From: an uncultured Pseudomonadota bacterium
GTDB taxonomy: Bacteria; Myxococcota_A; UBA796; GCA-2862545
NCBI GenBank assembly: GCA_913061235.1
Contig: CAJXTB010000037.1
Coordinates: 1-40,606 of the forward strand
Length of the DNA: 40,606 nucleotides
Direction: 5' to 3'
The notes beneath the pieces were generated by a model. It did not search any database. It was not told the origin of the DNA and worked only from the letters and a program-made list of their open reading frames with translations. Made by a program: the position numbers and the translations under genes. How positions within the stretch are numbered: position 1 is the first letter of the stretch; every line of letters begins with the position of its first letter. Positions 1,621-40,606 of this stretch are shown piece by piece.

Positions 1621-3714
1621 ATGACTGACGAAGAAACCCAACCGACTAGCGGTGTCTGGCGCTGGTTTAAGAGGCTAGGGGCGGGCGCTGCAGTGACGGG
1701 TCTTCTCGGGGTCACTCTGATCGGCGGCGGCATTTGGTACTGGCGCCATCAAGTGAATGCGCGTCATGCACTGGCGGAGGCCGCGCAAGTCGACCGTGCG
1801 AATGAGGCGTTCTCGCCTGTGTTTGAGAAGTTTGCCGAAGCTCATCTGGAGCCCACGTACGACATCGACAAGACCATTCGAGTCATTCACGAGCTCGACC
1901 GCGCGCTCTCCCACAAGGATTCACTTGAGGGCTACCTGCAGGAGCTGGCCACCCAGGACTATCGGGACGTCGCCCCGGAGGTTTTAGACGCTCGCAAGGA
2001 GATCATGGAGGTCTTGCTGAAGCTGTACGCCAAACAGGTGGAGTCCGGCGATCAGCAGGCCATGTGGGAGATGACCAGTGAGCTTCTCCTGACAGCATTC
2101 AGCGTGGTGGATTTTGACGGTGGACTCGACGCCGTCGGCCCCACAGCCGGCCTGTCCATCGACCGCGAACAAGCGCAGGAACTGTTGCGGGACATGCGCC
2201 AAGAGCAGCACGACCACCGCGAGCTGGTGCGCGACATGGCGCAGCTGGAGACCGAGCTTCTCTCCGCCATGACCGACTATTCAGAGGTCTACTACCGGTA
2301 TATGGATGAGTGGGATGACTTGTCGGTCATGCGCGACCGTGCGTATCTGGCAGCCCACAACCAAGACTGGGTCACAGTCGCAGATGCGGCGACCATCGCT
2401 GTCGAGAAGGCGCCGCAAGAGCGTGAAGCACACTTGTTGTTGGCCATGGCCAAGATTGAGCTGGGCGGTGCGGAGAGCGATGCAGAAATTCTCGGCCTGT
2501 TGTCCGACTACATCGAAGACCATCCAAGCAGCACAGCGCCCGCGTTTCAGCTGATGGGCATTCAGCACACCAACATGGGACGCACCGATGAAGCCCGGCT
2601 CGCGTTCCAGCAGTCGGCTGCCTACTACCCGCGCCAGGCGGAAGAGCTGACGGACATGCTCGACCCGTACACCATGCGGTCGTTCTTGCGAAAGTCCCGC
2701 GAGGGCGGGTTTATTTTGGAGTTGTACAAGAGCACCATGTTGGGTGCCGGGTACTGGAGTCCGGACCTTCAGCTCGCCGAGTTGTTGTTTGAATCTGGCG
2801 ACATTGAAGCCGGCAAAGAAAAGGTCTTGGACCACTTCTCACGGCGTCGCAATCAGCAGCAATGGGACTTTGTGCTGAGCGACATCCAGTACTGCTACGA
2901 TCTACTGGGTCCGCGGTTCTGGGAGATTTTCCCTGAGGACCACTACTTGGACTTGGAGATCTCAAACACGACCTTCGGCTCGAGGCTGTCTGTCGGTGTG
3001 AACAACCGAAGCGACAAGACCCTACGGAATGCGAGCCTGCTCTTGGCGCTGCAGTTCACGGATATGTACGCTACTGACTACGAAGTCATGGCCGCTGAAC
3101 GTACGATTCCAGCCGTCCCTCCACATGAAATCACCGACTTTGGCAAGGTGGATGTTGAGCTGGACCTGTTTGGTGGCACCAAGACCGTGGACGACATCGT
3201 CCGCCACCGCGCAATCTTGATCACCAATGAGGCCGTTCTGTGGGTCGACACGGACGAGTACAAGATCGAGCGCGCTGAGGCTGAGCGCGAAGCACGCGTC
3301 GCGGGGGACGTCCCTGGTCGCCCCATCACTGTGGCGGACTCACCGACCGAGCGTTTTCCCGAGTACCAAACGACTGTCGACACCATCATCGCGGGTGTAG
3401 CGGATGCGGTGAGCGTGGAAGTTGAGAGCAAGTATGGGCGTGACAATGTGCTCATTGAGCTGCCGAAGGAGCTGTCGCTGCTTCGCCCATTGTTCCGGCT
3501 AAAGTACGGCGACGAGGTCTTGGCGGCTCAGGACAACGTCATTGAAGGCGACAGCATCCAGCTGCGCTTTGCCGGTGTCGACAACTTCGACTCGGAAGAC
3601 ATTGACCCGAACGACCTCGAGTTGTTGGTGGCATCTCCGTTCGGGGACATCGTCATCAACTGGGTCAGCGATGGCACCGTGAGTTGGCGCTTCGCCGGCG
3701 TTGAGCGCGAATAG
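1621..3714 (+). CDS. membrane-anchored TPR protein, function unknown
   Basis: A 697-residue protein that I do not recognise as a named family. Residues ~22-42 form a single hydrophobic helix after a short charged N-terminus, so it is probably a bitopic inner-membrane protein with a large extracytoplasmic part. Residues ~50-230 are acidic and helical. Residues ~240-345 show tetratricopeptide-like repeats, with A-x-x-A-x-x-x-x-P-x-x-x-x-A-x-x-x-L-A and G-R-x-D-E-A-R-L-A-F patterns. The rest looks beta-rich. GAGAGGGAA upstream of ATG is the ribosome-binding site. It is followed after 59 bp by the first exchanger gene and may be a scaffold for that unit, but a TAGACT box in the gap allows separate transcription. 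Confidence 0.7.
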   Translation: MTDEETQPTSGVWRWFKRLGAGAAVTGLLGVTLIGGGIWYWRHQVNARHALAEAAQVDRANEAFSPVFEKFAEAHLEPTYDIDKTIRVIHELDRALSHKDSLEGYLQELATQDYRDVAPEVLDARKEIMEVLLKLYAKQVESGDQQAMWEMTSELLLTAFSVVDFDGGLDAVGPTAGLSIDREQAQELLRDMRQEQHDHRELVRDMAQLETELLSAMTDYSEVYYRYMDEWDDLSVMRDRAYLAAHNQDWVTVADAATIAVEKAPQEREAHLLLAMAKIELGGAESDAEILGLLSDYIEDHPSSTAPAFQLMGIQHTNMGRTDEARLAFQQSAAYYPRQAEELTDMLDPYTMRSFLRKSREGGFILELYKSTMLGAGYWSPDLQLAELLFESGDIEAGKEKVLDHFSRRRNQQQWDFVLSDIQYCYDLLGPRFWEIFPEDHYLDLEISNTTFGSRLSVGVNNRSDKTLRNASLLLALQFTDMYATDYEVMAAERTIPAVPPHEITDFGKVDVELDLFGGTKTVDDIVRHRAILITNEAVLWVDTDEYKIERAEAEREARVAGDVPGRPITVADSPTERFPEYQTTVDTIIAGVADAVSVEVESKYGRDNVLIELPKELSLLRPLFRLKYGDEVLAAQDNVIEGDSIQLRFAGVDNFDSEDIDPNDLELLVASPFGDIVINWVSDGTVSWRFAGVERE

Positions 3715-3773: not shown

Positions 3774-5009
3774 ATGTCCACCACCATTACTCTCGTTGTC
3801 GTCGTTGCGTTCAGCTTCGTCATTGGCGAGTTCATCCAGCGCCTTGCCACGCGTCGCGGGTTGCTGTTGTCCGGTGCTGAGTACCTAATCGTCGGTGTCT
3901 TGGTGGGGCCGTTGGTCAGCGGAATCGTCAGCACGGACTCGCTGGTTGTCATTGAGCCGGCCATGTGGCTTCTGATTGGTTTGGTCGGGTTCACCAAGGG
4001 GCTGCGATTGCGCCACGCGGTGTCCGATGGTGGTGTGACCTACCTGATCGCAGCCACTCTTTTGTCGCTTGTGAGCATGGCGGTCATTGGCGCGGCCGGA
4101 TTCGGTCTGCTTCAGTGGCTAGAGCCCGAGACGGCGCTCTTAGACATGATTCTGCCGGTGGTGGTCTTTGGCACGGCGGGCTCCGTGGTCAGCTCGCGCT
4201 TTGTGAACCTTGCTGCCGAGCGCTTTCGTGCGCGTGGTCCGCTGACGCGATTCTTGTCGACGTCGGCTGACTGGGGCAACACGCTGGCGGTGTTGGTGGC
4301 AGGCGGCGTGATGGACTGGCAGCGGAGCAAGTCCCCCATTGAAGTGTTGGAAGTGTCCCTTCCCGGCGAGTTGTGGGCGGTCGCGAGCTTGCTGATCGGT
4401 GTGTTTGCTGGGGTCCTGTTCTGGCTGTTCCACCGAGACAAAGATGACGATGAACGTACATTTCTGGCCACGGTTGGCGTGGTTATCTTTGCCAGTGGCA
4501 TCGCCTCGGCAGTTGGGTGCTCTCCGCTGCTAGTCGGCTTGCTCGCCGGTGTGACGGTGTCCATCATGAGCCGCCAAGCAGATGACTTGAGCGACAAGCT
4601 CTCGACCCTCCAGCGGCCTTCCGGCATTGTCTTGATGATTTTCGCCGGAACTCTGTGGGTCCTACCGACCATGGTGGGCTGGGCCGGCGTGTTGACGTAC
4701 TTGTTGACCCGAACTCTGGTGCTTTGGGTGGTGCCGCGGCTCGTGGTGCGTCCTCTGCTCGGGTCCGTTGCGGCTGGCTGGCTCGGGGCGGGCATGCGGG
4801 GGCAAGGCGTTGTGCCGGTGGCCTTGGTGCTGTCCCTCATTCTGGTTCATGAGGAGCATGCACAGGTGATGAGCGTGGTTCTTGTGTGTGTCTTTGTGCT
4901 TGAGTTCGGAGCGGGCGCTGCGCTGCGCCGACTTCTGGGAGATGCGGGAGAGCTGGGGGTTGTCCAAGAACCGGCCTCTCCGGCCACCCGTTCGGGAGGT
5001 GCGGCATGA
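3774..5009 (+). CDS. CPA2-type cation/proton exchanger membrane protein
   Basis: This 411-residue protein is almost entirely hydrophobic with about 11-12 predicted membrane helices. The layout matches the Na+/H+ exchanger (Kef/NapA-like) fold: an early Y-L-I-V-G-V-L-V-G-P segment, which is the classic helix-2 signature, and an internal F-G-T-A-G-S-V-V-S-S stretch at the position of the core ion-binding helices. There is no C-terminal TrkA-N or other soluble regulatory domain. The likely role is exchange of Na+ or K+ for H+ across the inner membrane; the ion cannot be read from sequence. Its stop overlaps the next start by 4 bp (ATGA, 5006-5009), so the two exchangers are translationally coupled and may form a heteromer. 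Confidence 0.8.
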   Translation: MSTTITLVVVVAFSFVIGEFIQRLATRRGLLLSGAEYLIVGVLVGPLVSGIVSTDSLVVIEPAMWLLIGLVGFTKGLRLRHAVSDGGVTYLIAATLLSLVSMAVIGAAGFGLLQWLEPETALLDMILPVVVFGTAGSVVSSRFVNLAAERFRARGPLTRFLSTSADWGNTLAVLVAGGVMDWQRSKSPIEVLEVSLPGELWAVASLLIGVFAGVLFWLFHRDKDDDERTFLATVGVVIFASGIASAVGCSPLLVGLLAGVTVSIMSRQADDLSDKLSTLQRPSGIVLMIFAGTLWVLPTMVGWAGVLTYLLTRTLVLWVVPRLVVRPLLGSVAAGWLGAGMRGQGVVPVALVLSLILVHEEHAQVMSVVLVCVFVLEFGAGAALRRLLGDAGELGVVQEPASPATRSGGAA

Positions 5010-8000
5010 GGCGCATACTCGTACTGGTTGCTGCTCTTGGTGCCATGTGGTTCTTGGGTGGCTTGGAACAAGCCCCAGATGCCGGTCTGCTGCACCCTCT
5101 GACTCTGGCCGCGATTGGCTTTGTGGTCTTGGCTGCCTTCACCGTTGGCGAGCTTGGTAGCAGCCTTGGACTGCCCAAGGTCACAGGCTACATCGTCGCG
5201 GGTGTGCTGGTCGGTCCGCAGGCGGGCAAGCTGATGTTTGGGGATGGCTCATCGGGGATTCTGTCCGAAGCCGTCGTCGACAACCTGACCGTGTTCAATA
5301 CGCTGGCGTTGGGTCTGATTGCCATGACCGCCGGTCTGGAGCTGAATCTCAAGGCGATTGCTCGGGTGTGGAAGAGCCTCACGTCGATTGTCTTTCTAAA
5401 GATTCCGCTCTTGCTTGTGATGGTTGGCGGCGCATTTGTTGCCATTGAGACCTTTGCGCCTAGCCTTGGACTTCCGCCGATAGCGATTGTTCCCGTGGCC
5501 CTGATTGTCGCAGTCTTGGGCATTGGAACCTCGCCCGCTATCGCGATTGCTGTTGTGAATGATAGCGGTGCTAAAGGCCGATTGACGGATTTGTTACTCG
5601 CGATTGCTGTCGTGAAAGACTTGGTCGTTGTGATCAGCTTGGCGATTGCTCTGGCTATCGACAAGACGCTGCTCGTTCCCGGCGTGACCCTCGATGCGCA
5701 GGTGTTGGTGCACGTGGCGCAAGAGCTGGGAAACAGCATGCTTGTCGGCGCGGTGTTGGGCCTGTTGCTGACGGCCTACGTTCGCTTCGTGAACAAGCAG
5801 ATGTTGCTGTTCGTGTTGCTCACCATTCTGGTGGCCGCCGAGATCAGCGCGGTCTACCACCTCGAGCTGCTGCTGGTGTTCATTGCTGCTGGCTTCTTGG
5901 TCCGCAACTTCACGCCCTATGAGCATGAGCTGCTCCACCCGCTTGAGCGAATTGCCCTGCCGGTATTCGTGGTGTTCTTCACCACAGCGGGCGCCAAAGT
6001 CGACCTCATCACCACGTGGAGCATTCTTCCACTTGCGCTGGCGTTGTTCGCGGTTCGGATTTTCGCCTACTACATCGCCGGTCGTCTCGGAAGTGTGATT
6101 GGCGGGGAGAGCAAGGCAATACAGGACAATGCGTGGCTGACCTTCTTGCCACAGGCAGGTGTGACGCTTGGATTGGTAGGACTGGCGGCGAATGCATTGC
6201 CGGACCTTTCCAGTCAGATCAGTGCCATTGGTCTAGCATTGGTGACGCTGAACCTGATGGTCGGGCCGGTCACCATGGGGCTGGGCCTCAAGTGGGCAGG
6301 GGAGACCCGAGGCGCCACCGTTGGCGACGCTCCAGAGTCGGAAGACGTGGCCATTCCGCGTGAGCTCACCGAAGAAACCTCCGAGGGGGCGTACGACGGC
6401 CCGGTGCGTTCGCCAGCTGCCTTGGTTGCGCCGCTAGGCGGTGGTGAGATCACCGGTACGCTTGAGGAACTCGCGAAGCGCCTGAATGACGACATCGCAG
6501 TATTCTTTGAAGATGTAGCCGCACCCGCTGCCGTCGCGGTTCGAGACGCCGCATTGTCGCGCGTCTCGGTTGCCAACGACGTTGAGACCTTGGTCAGCGC
6601 TGCCCTCAAGCCCATGCTGATGCCGAAAGCCGGATGGGACGACCATGTCATGGCCCTGTACAAGCAGATGGCCGGCAAGGTTCAAGCGCTCCCCGAGCGG
6701 GCGCAGATGGTGGCGATTGAGACGCCAGCCCACCACGCCACTCGCGCAGCGGACTCCGGGTTCTTGGGGGGATTGAGACGGTCTGGCGCTCAGCTCTTGT
6801 CGCTGACCGATAGGCGAACGCCGCCTCTGCGAATGCATGCTCGGTGCGCGATAGAAGGCCGCTTGGCAGTGGGAATGCACGAGCTGTTTGACTCTTGGTA
6901 CCGCAATCAAGCTCACGTCCTGGAGCTGCTCCTACGGGCTATCGAGCATGAGGAAGACTCCCAGATCTGCCGAGAGCGCGTCGCACAAGCAACCCATGTC
7001 TGGTTGCGCCGTGAAGAGGAGGCACTGCGCCGGGTTGTGGCGGAGGGGATTGCCGGTGTGGTCGCTGATCTATTGGAGTACGCAAGTCCTATGGGGCACC
7101 CGCGCCGGCCTCGTTTCTCACGCGTTGAGCCGCTGGTCGAATCCAACATGCGAAGCATCGCAACGGACGTTGGCTTGTGGCGAGACGCTGTCGGTGCGAC
7201 CTCGGAACACGTGCAAGCGGCCACCCTTGTGGCGGTTGGAGACGCCCGGACGCGAGCTATGTTGACCGACTGGGGTGAGTCCGCTCTAGACGAGGTCCGG
7301 GCGTCCGCAATCCCTCGCATTGAGGACACGATTGCGGCGCTAGAGAGCTTGTATGCACGCCTGGATTCGGACGACAATGACGTGGACTGGGAAGTGGAGG
7401 TCAAGCGGGCTTTTCCGGTGTCGAAGCGCCTGGCACTTCGTGCGGATGGCGCGAACTTCAGGCAGCGCACCCAGCCCCAGTCCCTGCAGAATGTGATGTT
7501 GCCGTTGGTGGAGTCTGCGCCAAGCCGTCTGCGTGTTGTGGGTGTGCGTCGGGCGTCGCGCCTGGACCATCCGCGCGAGCTGCTGACGAAGCACATTCCA
7601 ATGGCTCAGCGCCTGCGGGCCATTCTTCTCGACGAGCTGGTTCCCGAGTGTGGGCGCGCGTTGGCTCCGCTTAAGTCCCGCATCACAGGCCTACATCGCA
7701 GTATTGCGGAAGGCGTTGAGGTTGCGAGCTTCGGTGTTGCTGAGGCCCTGCGTTCATCCGCGGAACCCAATGACCTTCACGGTCCCATTCGCCGTGCCAT
7801 CGTGCGTCTGAAGACCGAACACGAAGACCTCATTGCGGCCATTGACCAAGCACGGCTGCGTCTTCGTGGCGAAGAGGATGACACGCGCAACGCCTTGGAC
7901 GCTCTGCTCGACGTTCAAGGGGTCGGCGCTGACCTGGTTCAGACCGGTGTTGCCGCCACGCGTCGCTCTGTGCGTTCGTGGCTTGTTGGTCTGCGCTCAT

Positions 8001-9205
8001 TCGTGACCGGCGTCGGTCGGCGCGCCCGCTCGGTTCAGGCCGAGATTCTGGACCATCCGTGGATTACCGACCGCGCAGTGCGGTTGGGGCACGCCAAGGT
8101 AGACGGCGACGCTATGCGGCATGCCGTGTATGAATCGCTGCCGTCCCGCGAGCTGGGTGCTGGCCTTGTGAACCTGTTTGCGGCTCGCGCGGTGGATGAC
8201 CGTCGCCTGTTTGTCGCGCACAAGTCGGCACTCGAGCGCCTTGGACTGCTGTTGTCTCGTCCAGAAGACCATGCTCGATTGGCGGCCCTGGTCGTCGGTC
8301 GCCGTGGAAGCGGTCGTACGTCGCTGCTGAACATGCTTCAGCTGCGTGCTCGTGAGCGGCAGGTCATTCGGGTGGACGACGCCTCGCATGACCGGACCAT
8401 GGGGCTCATTGCGGTCTTGGCGACGGAGCTGCACACTGCGCCCGTCGAAGAAGAGGTGTTGGAAGCGCTGACTCGGATTCGTCCGCTCGTGCTTGTCGAC
8501 AACCTAGGCCGCTTCCTGGCGCCTACCTTTGAGAGCACTGACCGGCTTGACTGCGTGTTGGGCTTGGTCGCTGCCTCCAGCTCCCACGGGACTGAGTGGG
8601 TCGTCACCATCGAAGCCTCGCTGCTGCATCGCCTTGAAGATGTCCTGTCCGTCACCCGCGTCTTCAATCAGCGCGTGGACCTGGAACCGGTGGGCTGGCG
8701 CGACCTGCGAGAGGTCATGCGTGCACGATTCCGCCTGGGTGGACTCTCCTGTCGTCACGACTACTTGAGCCGCATTGAGGCTGTTCTTCCTGGTGAGCCG
8801 GAGGAGCGCTACTTCAAGCGGCTGACAGAGGCGAGTGGCGGAAATCTGTCATCGGCGATGCACGCGCACCGTGGTGCTCTGACCGTGACAGATGAAGAAT
8901 CCGTGTTTTCCGTATCGAGGCCGCATGCTGTGACGTTGCCGTTCGTCGGTGACCTCTCACCGGTTTCGCGTGCCACTCTCGCGGTGTTGTACTCGTATGG
9001 ACCCATGACCCGCGCCCAGCTGGCACACGGCCTGGGACTCGACCAGGGAGCGCTCTTCCGACACCTGCAAGCGCTGCGAGAGAGTGGCTTGTTGTCGGAT
9101 GTTCATCATGAGGGTGCACTCATCACCATTCCAGCGGGACTGCTGGCGAGTGTGCGAACCGAGCTGGTCTTGCACCGACAGATCACCGAAGAGGGGGTGC
9201 GATGA
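5006..9205 (+). CDS. exchanger-P-loop ATPase-winged helix fusion
   Basis: A 1399-residue fusion. Residues ~1-430 are a second Na+/H+-exchanger membrane domain (GYIVAGVLVGPQAG helix-2 signature; G-I-G-T-S-P-A-I-A core). Residues ~440-1060 form a long soluble, mostly helical region that I cannot assign. Residues ~1070-1310 are a P-loop ATPase: Walker A GRRGSGRTS at ~1098-1106 and Walker B LVLVDN with Asp ~1165, resembling STAND/Orc1-Cdc6-type AAA proteins. Residues ~1332-1365 form a winged helix-turn-helix (AQLAHGLGLDQGALFRHLQ). Known CPA2 exchangers end in TrkA-N domains, so an ATPase here is unusual. ATP-dependent gating or assembly of transport is an inference. It overlaps both neighbours by 4 bp. 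Confidence 0.8.
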   Translation: MRRILVLVAALGAMWFLGGLEQAPDAGLLHPLTLAAIGFVVLAAFTVGELGSSLGLPKVTGYIVAGVLVGPQAGKLMFGDGSSGILSEAVVDNLTVFNTLALGLIAMTAGLELNLKAIARVWKSLTSIVFLKIPLLLVMVGGAFVAIETFAPSLGLPPIAIVPVALIVAVLGIGTSPAIAIAVVNDSGAKGRLTDLLLAIAVVKDLVVVISLAIALAIDKTLLVPGVTLDAQVLVHVAQELGNSMLVGAVLGLLLTAYVRFVNKQMLLFVLLTILVAAEISAVYHLELLLVFIAAGFLVRNFTPYEHELLHPLERIALPVFVVFFTTAGAKVDLITTWSILPLALALFAVRIFAYYIAGRLGSVIGGESKAIQDNAWLTFLPQAGVTLGLVGLAANALPDLSSQISAIGLALVTLNLMVGPVTMGLGLKWAGETRGATVGDAPESEDVAIPRELTEETSEGAYDGPVRSPAALVAPLGGGEITGTLEELAKRLNDDIAVFFEDVAAPAAVAVRDAALSRVSVANDVETLVSAALKPMLMPKAGWDDHVMALYKQMAGKVQALPERAQMVAIETPAHHATRAADSGFLGGLRRSGAQLLSLTDRRTPPLRMHARCAIEGRLAVGMHELFDSWYRNQAHVLELLLRAIEHEEDSQICRERVAQATHVWLRREEEALRRVVAEGIAGVVADLLEYASPMGHPRRPRFSRVEPLVESNMRSIATDVGLWRDAVGATSEHVQAATLVAVGDARTRAMLTDWGESALDEVRASAIPRIEDTIAALESLYARLDSDDNDVDWEVEVKRAFPVSKRLALRADGANFRQRTQPQSLQNVMLPLVESAPSRLRVVGVRRASRLDHPRELLTKHIPMAQRLRAILLDELVPECGRALAPLKSRITGLHRSIAEGVEVASFGVAEALRSSAEPNDLHGPIRRAIVRLKTEHEDLIAAIDQARLRLRGEEDDTRNALDALLDVQGVGADLVQTGVAATRRSVRSWLVGLRSFVTGVGRRARSVQAEILDHPWITDRAVRLGHAKVDGDAMRHAVYESLPSRELGAGLVNLFAARAVDDRRLFVAHKSALERLGLLLSRPEDHARLAALVVGRRGSGRTSLLNMLQLRARERQVIRVDDASHDRTMGLIAVLATELHTAPVEEEVLEALTRIRPLVLVDNLGRFLAPTFESTDRLDCVLGLVAASSSHGTEWVVTIEASLLHRLEDVLSVTRVFNQRVDLEPVGWRDLREVMRARFRLGGLSCRHDYLSRIEAVLPGEPEERYFKRLTEASGGNLSSAMHAHRGALTVTDEESVFSVSRPHAVTLPFVGDLSPVSRATLAVLYSYGPMTRAQLAHGLGLDQGALFRHLQALRESGLLSDVHHEGALITIPAGLLASVRTELVLHRQITEEGVR

Positions 9206-10395
9206 TGCGGGTATTCCTTCTAGTATTCGGACTGATGGCTTGCGGTGGTGACGGACATGCTCCTGCCCACGACGACGGTCATGGTGGGGCAACTCACGGC
9301 GACGACTCTGCCCTTAGCCACGACGCCGGTCGCGGTGATGACGGCGGACACACAGCGACCCAGGACGACGGACACGGCACGTCACGCGCCACGTCTCATG
9401 GCGTCTTGCCACCGCCTCCCACACTACCTGGAGACGTCGCTGGCGTGCCCGGTGGGTTCCTCCCGGCAATCTCGACAGAGGTTCCACCGCCGGGTCCAGA
9501 CTCTGTCGCCGTAGCCACAGCCGCTGACCGTGCTCGGGTTGCGGGGCGAAAGCCACCAATGGCCGCTCATGCGCCGCTGGTACCCGTTGAACCGCTCTCT
9601 GCGGTGCTCCCGGTAGGTCCGACTGGACCCAATGTTGTGGTGGTCAAAGAAGGGCCGCTGCTGCCGACCATCGACATGCGGTCGCCACTGACGACCGCAC
9701 GCAGTGTCTTGTGGCGCTTCTTGCTCGGCATGGTTGTGTTGGTCGGCGTTCATGCGCTTGTGGCCCGTGCGCGTCGTCGTCTTCCGAAGCTGCAAGATGA
9801 CCTGCTGTTGGTTCAGCTGTTCAGCGTCATCTTTACGTTGCTAGTGACGGCCGCGGCCATCATTCAGGCCCTTGAGCATGCCTCGCCAGTTGTTGCCGGT
9901 GGGTCGCTGGTGGCCATGGGCTTGGCCGTCGTGTTCGTTGGAGCGCGCTTCCTGCCCCGGTACATCGAAGGGTTGTATTTGATGCTCGGACCCACCGTTC
10001 GGGTGGGTGACTGGGTGAGCTTCGGCGAAGACAATGGGACCTTGGCCGAAGTGGGACTGATTCGACTGACCTTGGTTCGTGAAGATGGTCGGCGCGTCAG
10101 CATTCCCGTCGCATCGCTGGGTGGGGCACGGTTTAGCGTTCAACCCCGTGACCATAGCTCTCCAGTAGATGTCATCGTCCCGGCTGGCAACATGCCTGAG
10201 CAGGTGCGTGCGCAGATGCTCGTCGCCGCCCAGATGTCCCCGTACCGAGACCCAGAGACCCCCGTCAGCGCCGTTGTGACCGGCCAACAGCTCCGTGTTC
10301 ACTTTGTGGCTTGGAGCCCGGACGTCGTCGAACATGCTGTCCGACATCTACGGGCGAGTCGCAGCCGCATCGATGAGCGCCACTCGCTGGTCTAG
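9202..10395 (+). CDS. MscS-like channel with lipoprotein N-terminus
   Basis: A 397-residue protein starting at an ATGA overlap with the fusion gene. The N-terminus is a short hydrophobic signal ending in a lipobox-like LMAC-GG. Next comes a ~45-residue stretch very rich in His, Asp and Gly (repeats of DDGHG), then a Pro-rich linker to about residue 155. Three hydrophobic helices (~168-250) lead into an MscS-type beta domain (VRVGDWVSFGEDNGTLAEVG and DGRRVSIPVASL). A mechanosensitive or osmotically gated pore in the inner membrane is the likely role. The His/Asp stretch could bind metal or sense pH outside the membrane. The lipid anchor is a prediction; the signal could instead be an uncleaved helix. 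The stop codon shares CTAG with the convergent gene. Confidence 0.78.
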   Translation: MMRVFLLVFGLMACGGDGHAPAHDDGHGGATHGDDSALSHDAGRGDDGGHTATQDDGHGTSRATSHGVLPPPPTLPGDVAGVPGGFLPAISTEVPPPGPDSVAVATAADRARVAGRKPPMAAHAPLVPVEPLSAVLPVGPTGPNVVVVKEGPLLPTIDMRSPLTTARSVLWRFLLGMVVLVGVHALVARARRRLPKLQDDLLLVQLFSVIFTLLVTAAAIIQALEHASPVVAGGSLVAMGLAVVFVGARFLPRYIEGLYLMLGPTVRVGDWVSFGEDNGTLAEVGLIRLTLVREDGRRVSIPVASLGGARFSVQPRDHSSPVDVIVPAGNMPEQVRAQMLVAAQMSPYRDPETPVSAVVTGQQLRVHFVAWSPDVVEHAVRHLRASRSRIDERHSLV

Positions 10396-40562: not shown

Positions 40563-40606
40563 CTGTCTCTTATACACATCTGACGCTGCCGACGAATAGA
40601 GAGGTG
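40563..40606 (-). other. Nextera i5/Read-1 sequencing adapter (artefact)
   Basis: This is the reverse complement of the left-end adapter: Tn5 mosaic end CTGTCTCTTATACACATCT (40563-40581), GACGCTGCCGACGA (40582-40595), the same index as ATAGAGAG (40596-40603) and GTG from the P5 arm. Genome sequence ends at 40562. Confidence 0.98.

Follow-up and report, generated by a model that had tools for sequence, protein, structure and literature searches.

Genes and domain architecture of the locus

The window, that is the whole stretch of 40,606 nucleotides of DNA that was analysed, contains three consecutive genes on the forward strand which encode an exchanger-like protein termed CPAx, a large fusion protein, and a channel of the MscS family (Table 1). 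The fusion ORF overlaps both neighbouring genes by four bases, which is a usual sign of translational coupling. The first-pass annotation gave the coordinates of the fusion ORF and missed the operon partners that flank it; the actual unit is an operon, a system both larger and more unusual than first described, and it is the second exchanger and the MscS genes that carry most of the functional signal.

Table 1. Features of the operon in the window and proteins of related architecture at other loci
Feature	Position	Strand	Basis or remark
CPAx, second exchanger-like subunit (predicted), 411 aa, ~12 TM	3774..5009	+	hhalign to fusion exchanger domain
Exchanger::stalk::AAA+::winged-helix fusion protein, 1399 aa	5006..9205	+	single open ORF; ATG overlaps CPAx stop
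Exchanger domain, residues 1-435	5006..6310	+	PF00999, AF2 model, NapA fold match
K204-D205, CPA ion-binding motif position in TM5	5615..5620	+	alignment
Helical stalk, residues ~481-1015	6446..8050	+	AF2 secondary structure; helices up to ~84 residues
AAA+ fold (predicted), ORC/Cdc6-like, residues ~1051-1310	8156..8935	+	Foldseek, VIA on predicted model
Walker A GRRGSGRTS, residues 1098-1106, K to R	8297..8323	+	sequence, alignment
Walker B LVLVDN, residues 1161-1166, one acidic residue	8486..8503	+	sequence, alignment
Winged helix, residues ~1316-1366	8951..9103	+	Pfam, AF2; recognition helix net charge 0
MscS-family channel, 397 aa	9202..10395	+	PF00924; ATG overlaps fusion stop
Type B proteins	L137 6448-11031 (window genome, C30), L051, L139-L151, L183		
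SLC12-like fusions (type C)	L174, L187-L195, L152		PF00324; intact Walker A; mostly MscS next

That a cation/proton exchanger is fused here to an ATPase-type module and a winged helix, as had been read from the sequence, is confirmed by the single ORF, by Pfam and by the folds predicted with AF2. Na_H_Exchanger (PF00999) matches residues 43–415 of the fusion (E 5e-20; 72 bits versus a gathering threshold of 26), and the AF2 model of the exchanger domain (pLDDT 87.7, pTM 0.85) is a NapA-like bundle with one extra N-terminal helix. Its best fold match is NapA 5bz2 (Z 36.3, rmsd 3.4 A over 373 residues); further matches are SOS1 (Z 34.5) and KefC (Z 26.8). With its PF00999 domain, NapA-type fold and TM5 carboxylate (D205), the fusion appears to belong to the CPA cation/proton exchanger superfamily. 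Assuming a NapA topology, the NapA-like fold with the one additional N-terminal helix would leave the C-terminus facing the cytosol.

For the C-terminal part, the AF2 model (pLDDT 77, pTM 0.48) shows a run of long helices that leads into an AAA+ fold and then a winged helix. The profile and structure searches proposed in the first-pass annotation bore fruit at the level of structure, with an AAA+ fold and a winged helix recovered by AF2, Foldseek and VIA, but the Pfam matches are weak, i.e., sub-threshold AAA_22/AAA_16 matches at residues ~1075–1164 and a winged-helix match, including MarR/ArsR profiles, at residues ~1316–1364. The top Foldseek matches are ORC/Cdc6/RuvB (E 4e-6), and VIA matched ORC2 1w5t (Z 14.3, rmsd 6.0 over 315 residues), with many AAA+ proteins tied and NLRC4 also among the matches. 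Judged by the predicted model, this part of the fusion has an AAA+ fold. The helical stalk has no Pfam match and no clear PDB relative by sequence. A TrkA_N/KTN domain is not found in the fusion by Pfam; in the relatives, TrkA is encoded by a gene of its own.

Pfam yields no convincing match for CPAx. Its family aligns over the full length with the exchanger domain of the fusion (hhalign 99.8%, 410 columns) and matches NapA structures weakly (E 4e-4); hence, CPAx appears to be a second exchanger-like protein. The MscS gene product matches PF00924, the MscS beta domain (E 1e-5; 26 bits versus a gathering threshold of 20.2). Its N-terminus (window 9202–9460) combines a signal/lipobox-like LMAC with a His/Asp-rich stretch, a potential metal-binding segment; in other MscS partners, the secreted N-terminus is instead rich in Pro/Glu/Asp. 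Upstream of the operon, a gene at 1621–3714 shows weak TPR matches and is widespread in Myxococcota, where 43 of 71 genomes of the class have it; it was rejected as a part of the system, as in relatives it is found on contigs other than that of the fusion.

Distribution and conservation of the operon

The search for homologues suggested by the first-pass annotation yielded the same exchanger-AAA+ join in 51 distinct Myxococcota fusion proteins from independent assemblies (counted after removal of duplicates); 46 of these have a detectable exchanger part, the others being divergent or cut by contig ends. In related genomes, the join is contained in ORFs of about 1400–1550 aa, with approximately one copy of the fusion per genome. 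A search of the phylum added further fusion families, including closed genomes. The range outside Myxococcota was assessed solely by a narrow-pattern scan of the contigs of 84,980 species, which returned 42 loci titled Myxococcota, Deltaproteobacteria or unnamed MAGs; one of these is labelled Oligoflexia, and its genes are the same as those of a contig (G039:C156) from the window's own order.

Since the same fusion recurs at 51 distinct loci, it is not a misassembly; the exchanger-AAA+ fusion is real. There is virtually no chance that an assembly artefact or read-through joined two genes—the assembly is not clean, with sequencing adapters at both contig ends, but these are confined to positions 10–42 and 40563–40595, and the homologues from independent assemblies, two of them in closed genomes (L167, L169), already refute this reading. 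The adapter is an untrimmed Nextera transposase adapter, matching exactly on the reverse strand at the first position and on the forward strand at the second, and it creates the tail CLLYTSDAADE of the ORF at 6–623.

Within this family, the fusion of the window is the most divergent member, on a branch of 2.03 whose position, basal in the fusion clade, is weakly supported. Its identity to relatives is 27–37% in the exchanger and 16–20% in the C-terminus; given the long branch and the low C-terminal identity, it may have drifted in function.

The conserved neighbours that had been looked for were also found, and they are ion-transport genes. The usual operon in relatives is CPAx–TrkA–TrkH–fusion–MscS, an order which is kept across the 51 distinct loci wherever the contig extends far enough to show it. 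CPAx lies upstream of the fusion in most relatives, and an MscS gene follows in 39 of the 41 loci with room downstream. The window contains a reduced form, CPAx–fusion–MscS without TrkA and TrkH, which is also present at L041 and in a distant family (L167–L169, L178, L179); TrkH is encoded elsewhere in the window genome. At two further loci (L049 4342–6905 and L050 2049–4594), unfused pairs of a CPAx-like and an exchanger gene occur without the C-terminal controller, possibly representing the ancestral state.

Ion-site and P-loop motifs, and the module on other membrane proteins

In TM5, the ion-site pair is most commonly KD in the family, with NN in some clades and AD also among the members. 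The fusion of the window reads KD, and the adjacent CPAx reads GN, without a carboxylate. Both exchanger subunits were scored at 58 loci, with gapped positions taken as absent; in these raw counts, which ignore the kinship of the sequences, the fusion keeps the carboxylate at 52 loci, and at least one subunit has it at 57, both lacking it at one locus. CPAx lacks the carboxylate at 18 loci where the fusion keeps it, the window included, as would be expected of an unequal pair. The pattern is consistent with an unequal exchanger pair, of which one protomer may be inactive.

The Walker motifs of the window protein had been described as intact, which is wrong for Walker A: GRRGSGRTS carries R at the position of the catalytic lysine and departs from GxxxxGK[ST]. 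In Walker B, LVLVDN, the first acidic residue is present and the second position is N, so that this motif deviates from hhhhD[DE]. With these motifs, a normally working ATPase is not supported for the window protein, in which hydrolysis is probably weak or absent. Going by the motifs, the fusion falls outside the definition of an active AAA+ or STAND ATPase despite its AAA+ fold.

Conservation of both Walker motifs across genomes, which the first-pass annotation had set as a test, did not emerge among the exchanger fusions. GxxxxGK[ST] is intact in 9/63, the Walker A lysine being kept in 41 and replaced in 22, and the acidic Walker B residue is kept in 51/63, then mostly followed by G (DG/EG); intact P-loops persist in several clades, and L116 and L173 are examples of exchanger fusions that have one. 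From these counts, the P-loop of the exchanger fusions appears to be retained as a fold while its catalytic residues decay.

A similar helix-AAA+-winged-helix C-terminal module is present on two further types of membrane protein. In type B proteins (~1200 aa), the AAA+ part and winged helix are joined to a signal peptide, a coiled stretch and multiple TM helices; an MscS gene follows in 18 of the 19 loci with room, and Walker A is intact in 6/20. Type C proteins (about 1600–1830 aa) start with an SLC12/amino-acid-permease domain (PF00324 with E 2e-41 to 9e-46, and a trace of PF03522), have MscS as the next gene at 9 of 11 loci, and are the only type in which Walker A is intact throughout (11/11). 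The wider family hence does contain an AAA+ module with an intact Walker A, and the exchanger fusions have the appearance of a lineage in which hydrolysis is being lost. Besides its type B protein, the window genome encodes unfused SLC12-like proteins. A very divergent relative at L170 (4448–10583) is a multi-TM protein of 1350 aa with an intact P-loop and NACHT/AAA matches; the gene before it encodes a multi-TM protein of 435 aa, and the one after it a protein of 260 aa with no more than a trace of an MscS match.

Ion and turgor homeostasis as a candidate function

The reading which we favour, and hold to be slightly more likely than not, is that the three genes form a module for ion and turgor homeostasis. 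A CPA-type exchanger of two unlike homologous subunits and an MscS channel would be placed under a shared cytosolic controller, the C-terminus of the fusion, which would act as a sensor and switch the exchanger. CPAx and the membrane domain of the fusion would constitute a heterodimeric cation/proton exchanger, and the stalk with its ORC/Cdc6-like AAA+ fold and winged helix would act as the cytosolic controller. Most likely, the AAA+ part would sense the state of the cell by binding a nucleotide or a partner, and the stalk would relay how this part is assembled or folded so as to turn the exchanger and perhaps MscS on or off. Gating of the exchanger by the AAA+ part, already put forward in the first-pass annotation, is something we infer. 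Ion release by antiport would be balanced with emergency release through MscS and, where the genes are present, with Trk uptake. The Trk and MscS neighbours and the likeness to Kef make K+ the probable cargo, and the upkeep of ion content and turgor the probable purpose. Counting against such a module are the lack of TrkA and TrkH in the operon of the window and the KD/NN/AD ion motifs, which differ among members. Due to the degenerate Walker A in the window and in most exchanger fusions, an ATP-driven switch may be absent there.

Several known systems resemble parts of this arrangement. SOS1 and SLC9C1 also have long regulatory C-termini; to our knowledge, these are cyclic-nucleotide-binding-like or other domains, not AAA+. 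The best fold matches of the exchanger domain, NapA and SOS1, belong to the NapA/NhaP/NHA2/SOS1 Na+/H+ antiporters, from which the fusion differs in reading KD in TM5. Like ORC1/Cdc6, RuvB and STAND NTPases, the fusion has an AAA+ core followed by a winged helix; unlike them, it is tethered to a transporter, with an eroded Walker A and no replication context, and it ends after the winged helix, where a STAND NTPase usually continues into repeat sensor domains. STAND-family matches in the relatives are sub-threshold only. The downstream gene shares PF00924 with MscS/MscK, but it is a near-constant partner of a controller protein and, in the exchanger operons, has a long secreted low-complexity N-terminus. 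Components of Trk K+ uptake, TrkA and TrkH, lie between the two exchanger genes in most relatives and are absent from the operon of the window. Kef exchangers are under the control of a KTN/RCK domain at their cytosolic C-terminus, the ligands of which are nucleotides and glutathione adducts (PMC10224563), and it is in the place of this domain that the AAA/STAND-type module stands, as had been anticipated. The fusion shares with Kef/CPA2 (KefB, KefC) a CPA exchanger with a C-terminal cytosolic regulatory domain and a K+ context; in contrast to Kef, it has no KTN/RCK domain but a stalk, an AAA+ part and a winged helix, and its operon adds a second exchanger subunit and MscS. By analogy, it would work like a C-terminally regulated CPA exchanger, but it is not a Kef.

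The strongest rival holds that the AAA+ part is a dead pseudo-ATPase, the stalk and winged helix merely scaffolding the exchanger pair, MscS (and Trk) in one complex without nucleotide-driven switching. The scarcity of intact Walker A motifs among the exchanger fusions, the frequent loss of the lysine, including its exchange for R in the window, and the strong operon conservation, which suggests a complex, all speak for it. For a pure scaffold, however, the acidic Walker B residue and the lysine that most fusions keep would be superfluous, and intact P-loops are found in several clades as well as in each of the 11 SLC12-type relatives; we regard a mere scaffold as unlikely, albeit worth serious consideration.

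A role in anti-phage defence or abortive infection, with a STAND/AAA+ sensor and membrane ion flux as effector, is improbable. It is prompted by the AAA_16/AAA_22/nSTAND-like profile matches and by the frequency of STAND and AAA+ sensors in conflict systems, but exchangers and MscS are unmentioned in the two surveys of STAND conflict systems (PMC7159879, PMC8195603). The window protein matches no PADLOC defence model, the weak matches (E 3e-4 to 2e-2) being to generic winged helix and P-loop only, no defence genes occur among the window ORFs read, and the occurrence of roughly one copy in each genome, within a conserved operon that includes Trk genes, argues further against defence.

Lower still do we rate a membrane-tethered DNA-binding or initiator-like protein, whose AAA+ part and winged helix would anchor or read DNA and couple the ion state to transcription or replication: the nearest folds are indeed ORC/Cdc6 and RuvB and the winged helix matches MarR/ArsR profiles, but the recognition helix has a mean net charge of 0 over 64 sequences, and AAA+ plus winged helix is also the layout of STAND/NLR proteins (NLRC4 being matched), where it does not bind DNA.

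Beyond the homeostasis module favoured for the three genes, a wider reading, somewhat less likely than not, is that of a new class of bacterial control system. In it, one cytosolic stalk-AAA+-winged-helix controller would have been plugged, in the course of evolution, onto three or more dissimilar front ends (CPA exchanger, SLC12-like cotransporter, coiled-coil membrane sensor). Its regular pairing with MscS would allow an AAA+ machine to match active ion transport to mechanosensitive release. A search of the open-licence literature turned up no description of AAA+ or STAND proteins with an exchanger or MscS in one system, which speaks weakly for novelty. As a rule, bacterial exchangers and mechanosensitive channels are investigated separately, with exchangers gated by small ligand-binding domains, KTN for instance. 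If exchangers or SLC12-like transporters are indeed joined to MscS by an AAA+ controller, turgor control would have a machine of its own for integration, and the repeated decay of the ATPase motifs would allow a direct test of how an ATPase turns into a pseudo-ATPase regulator.
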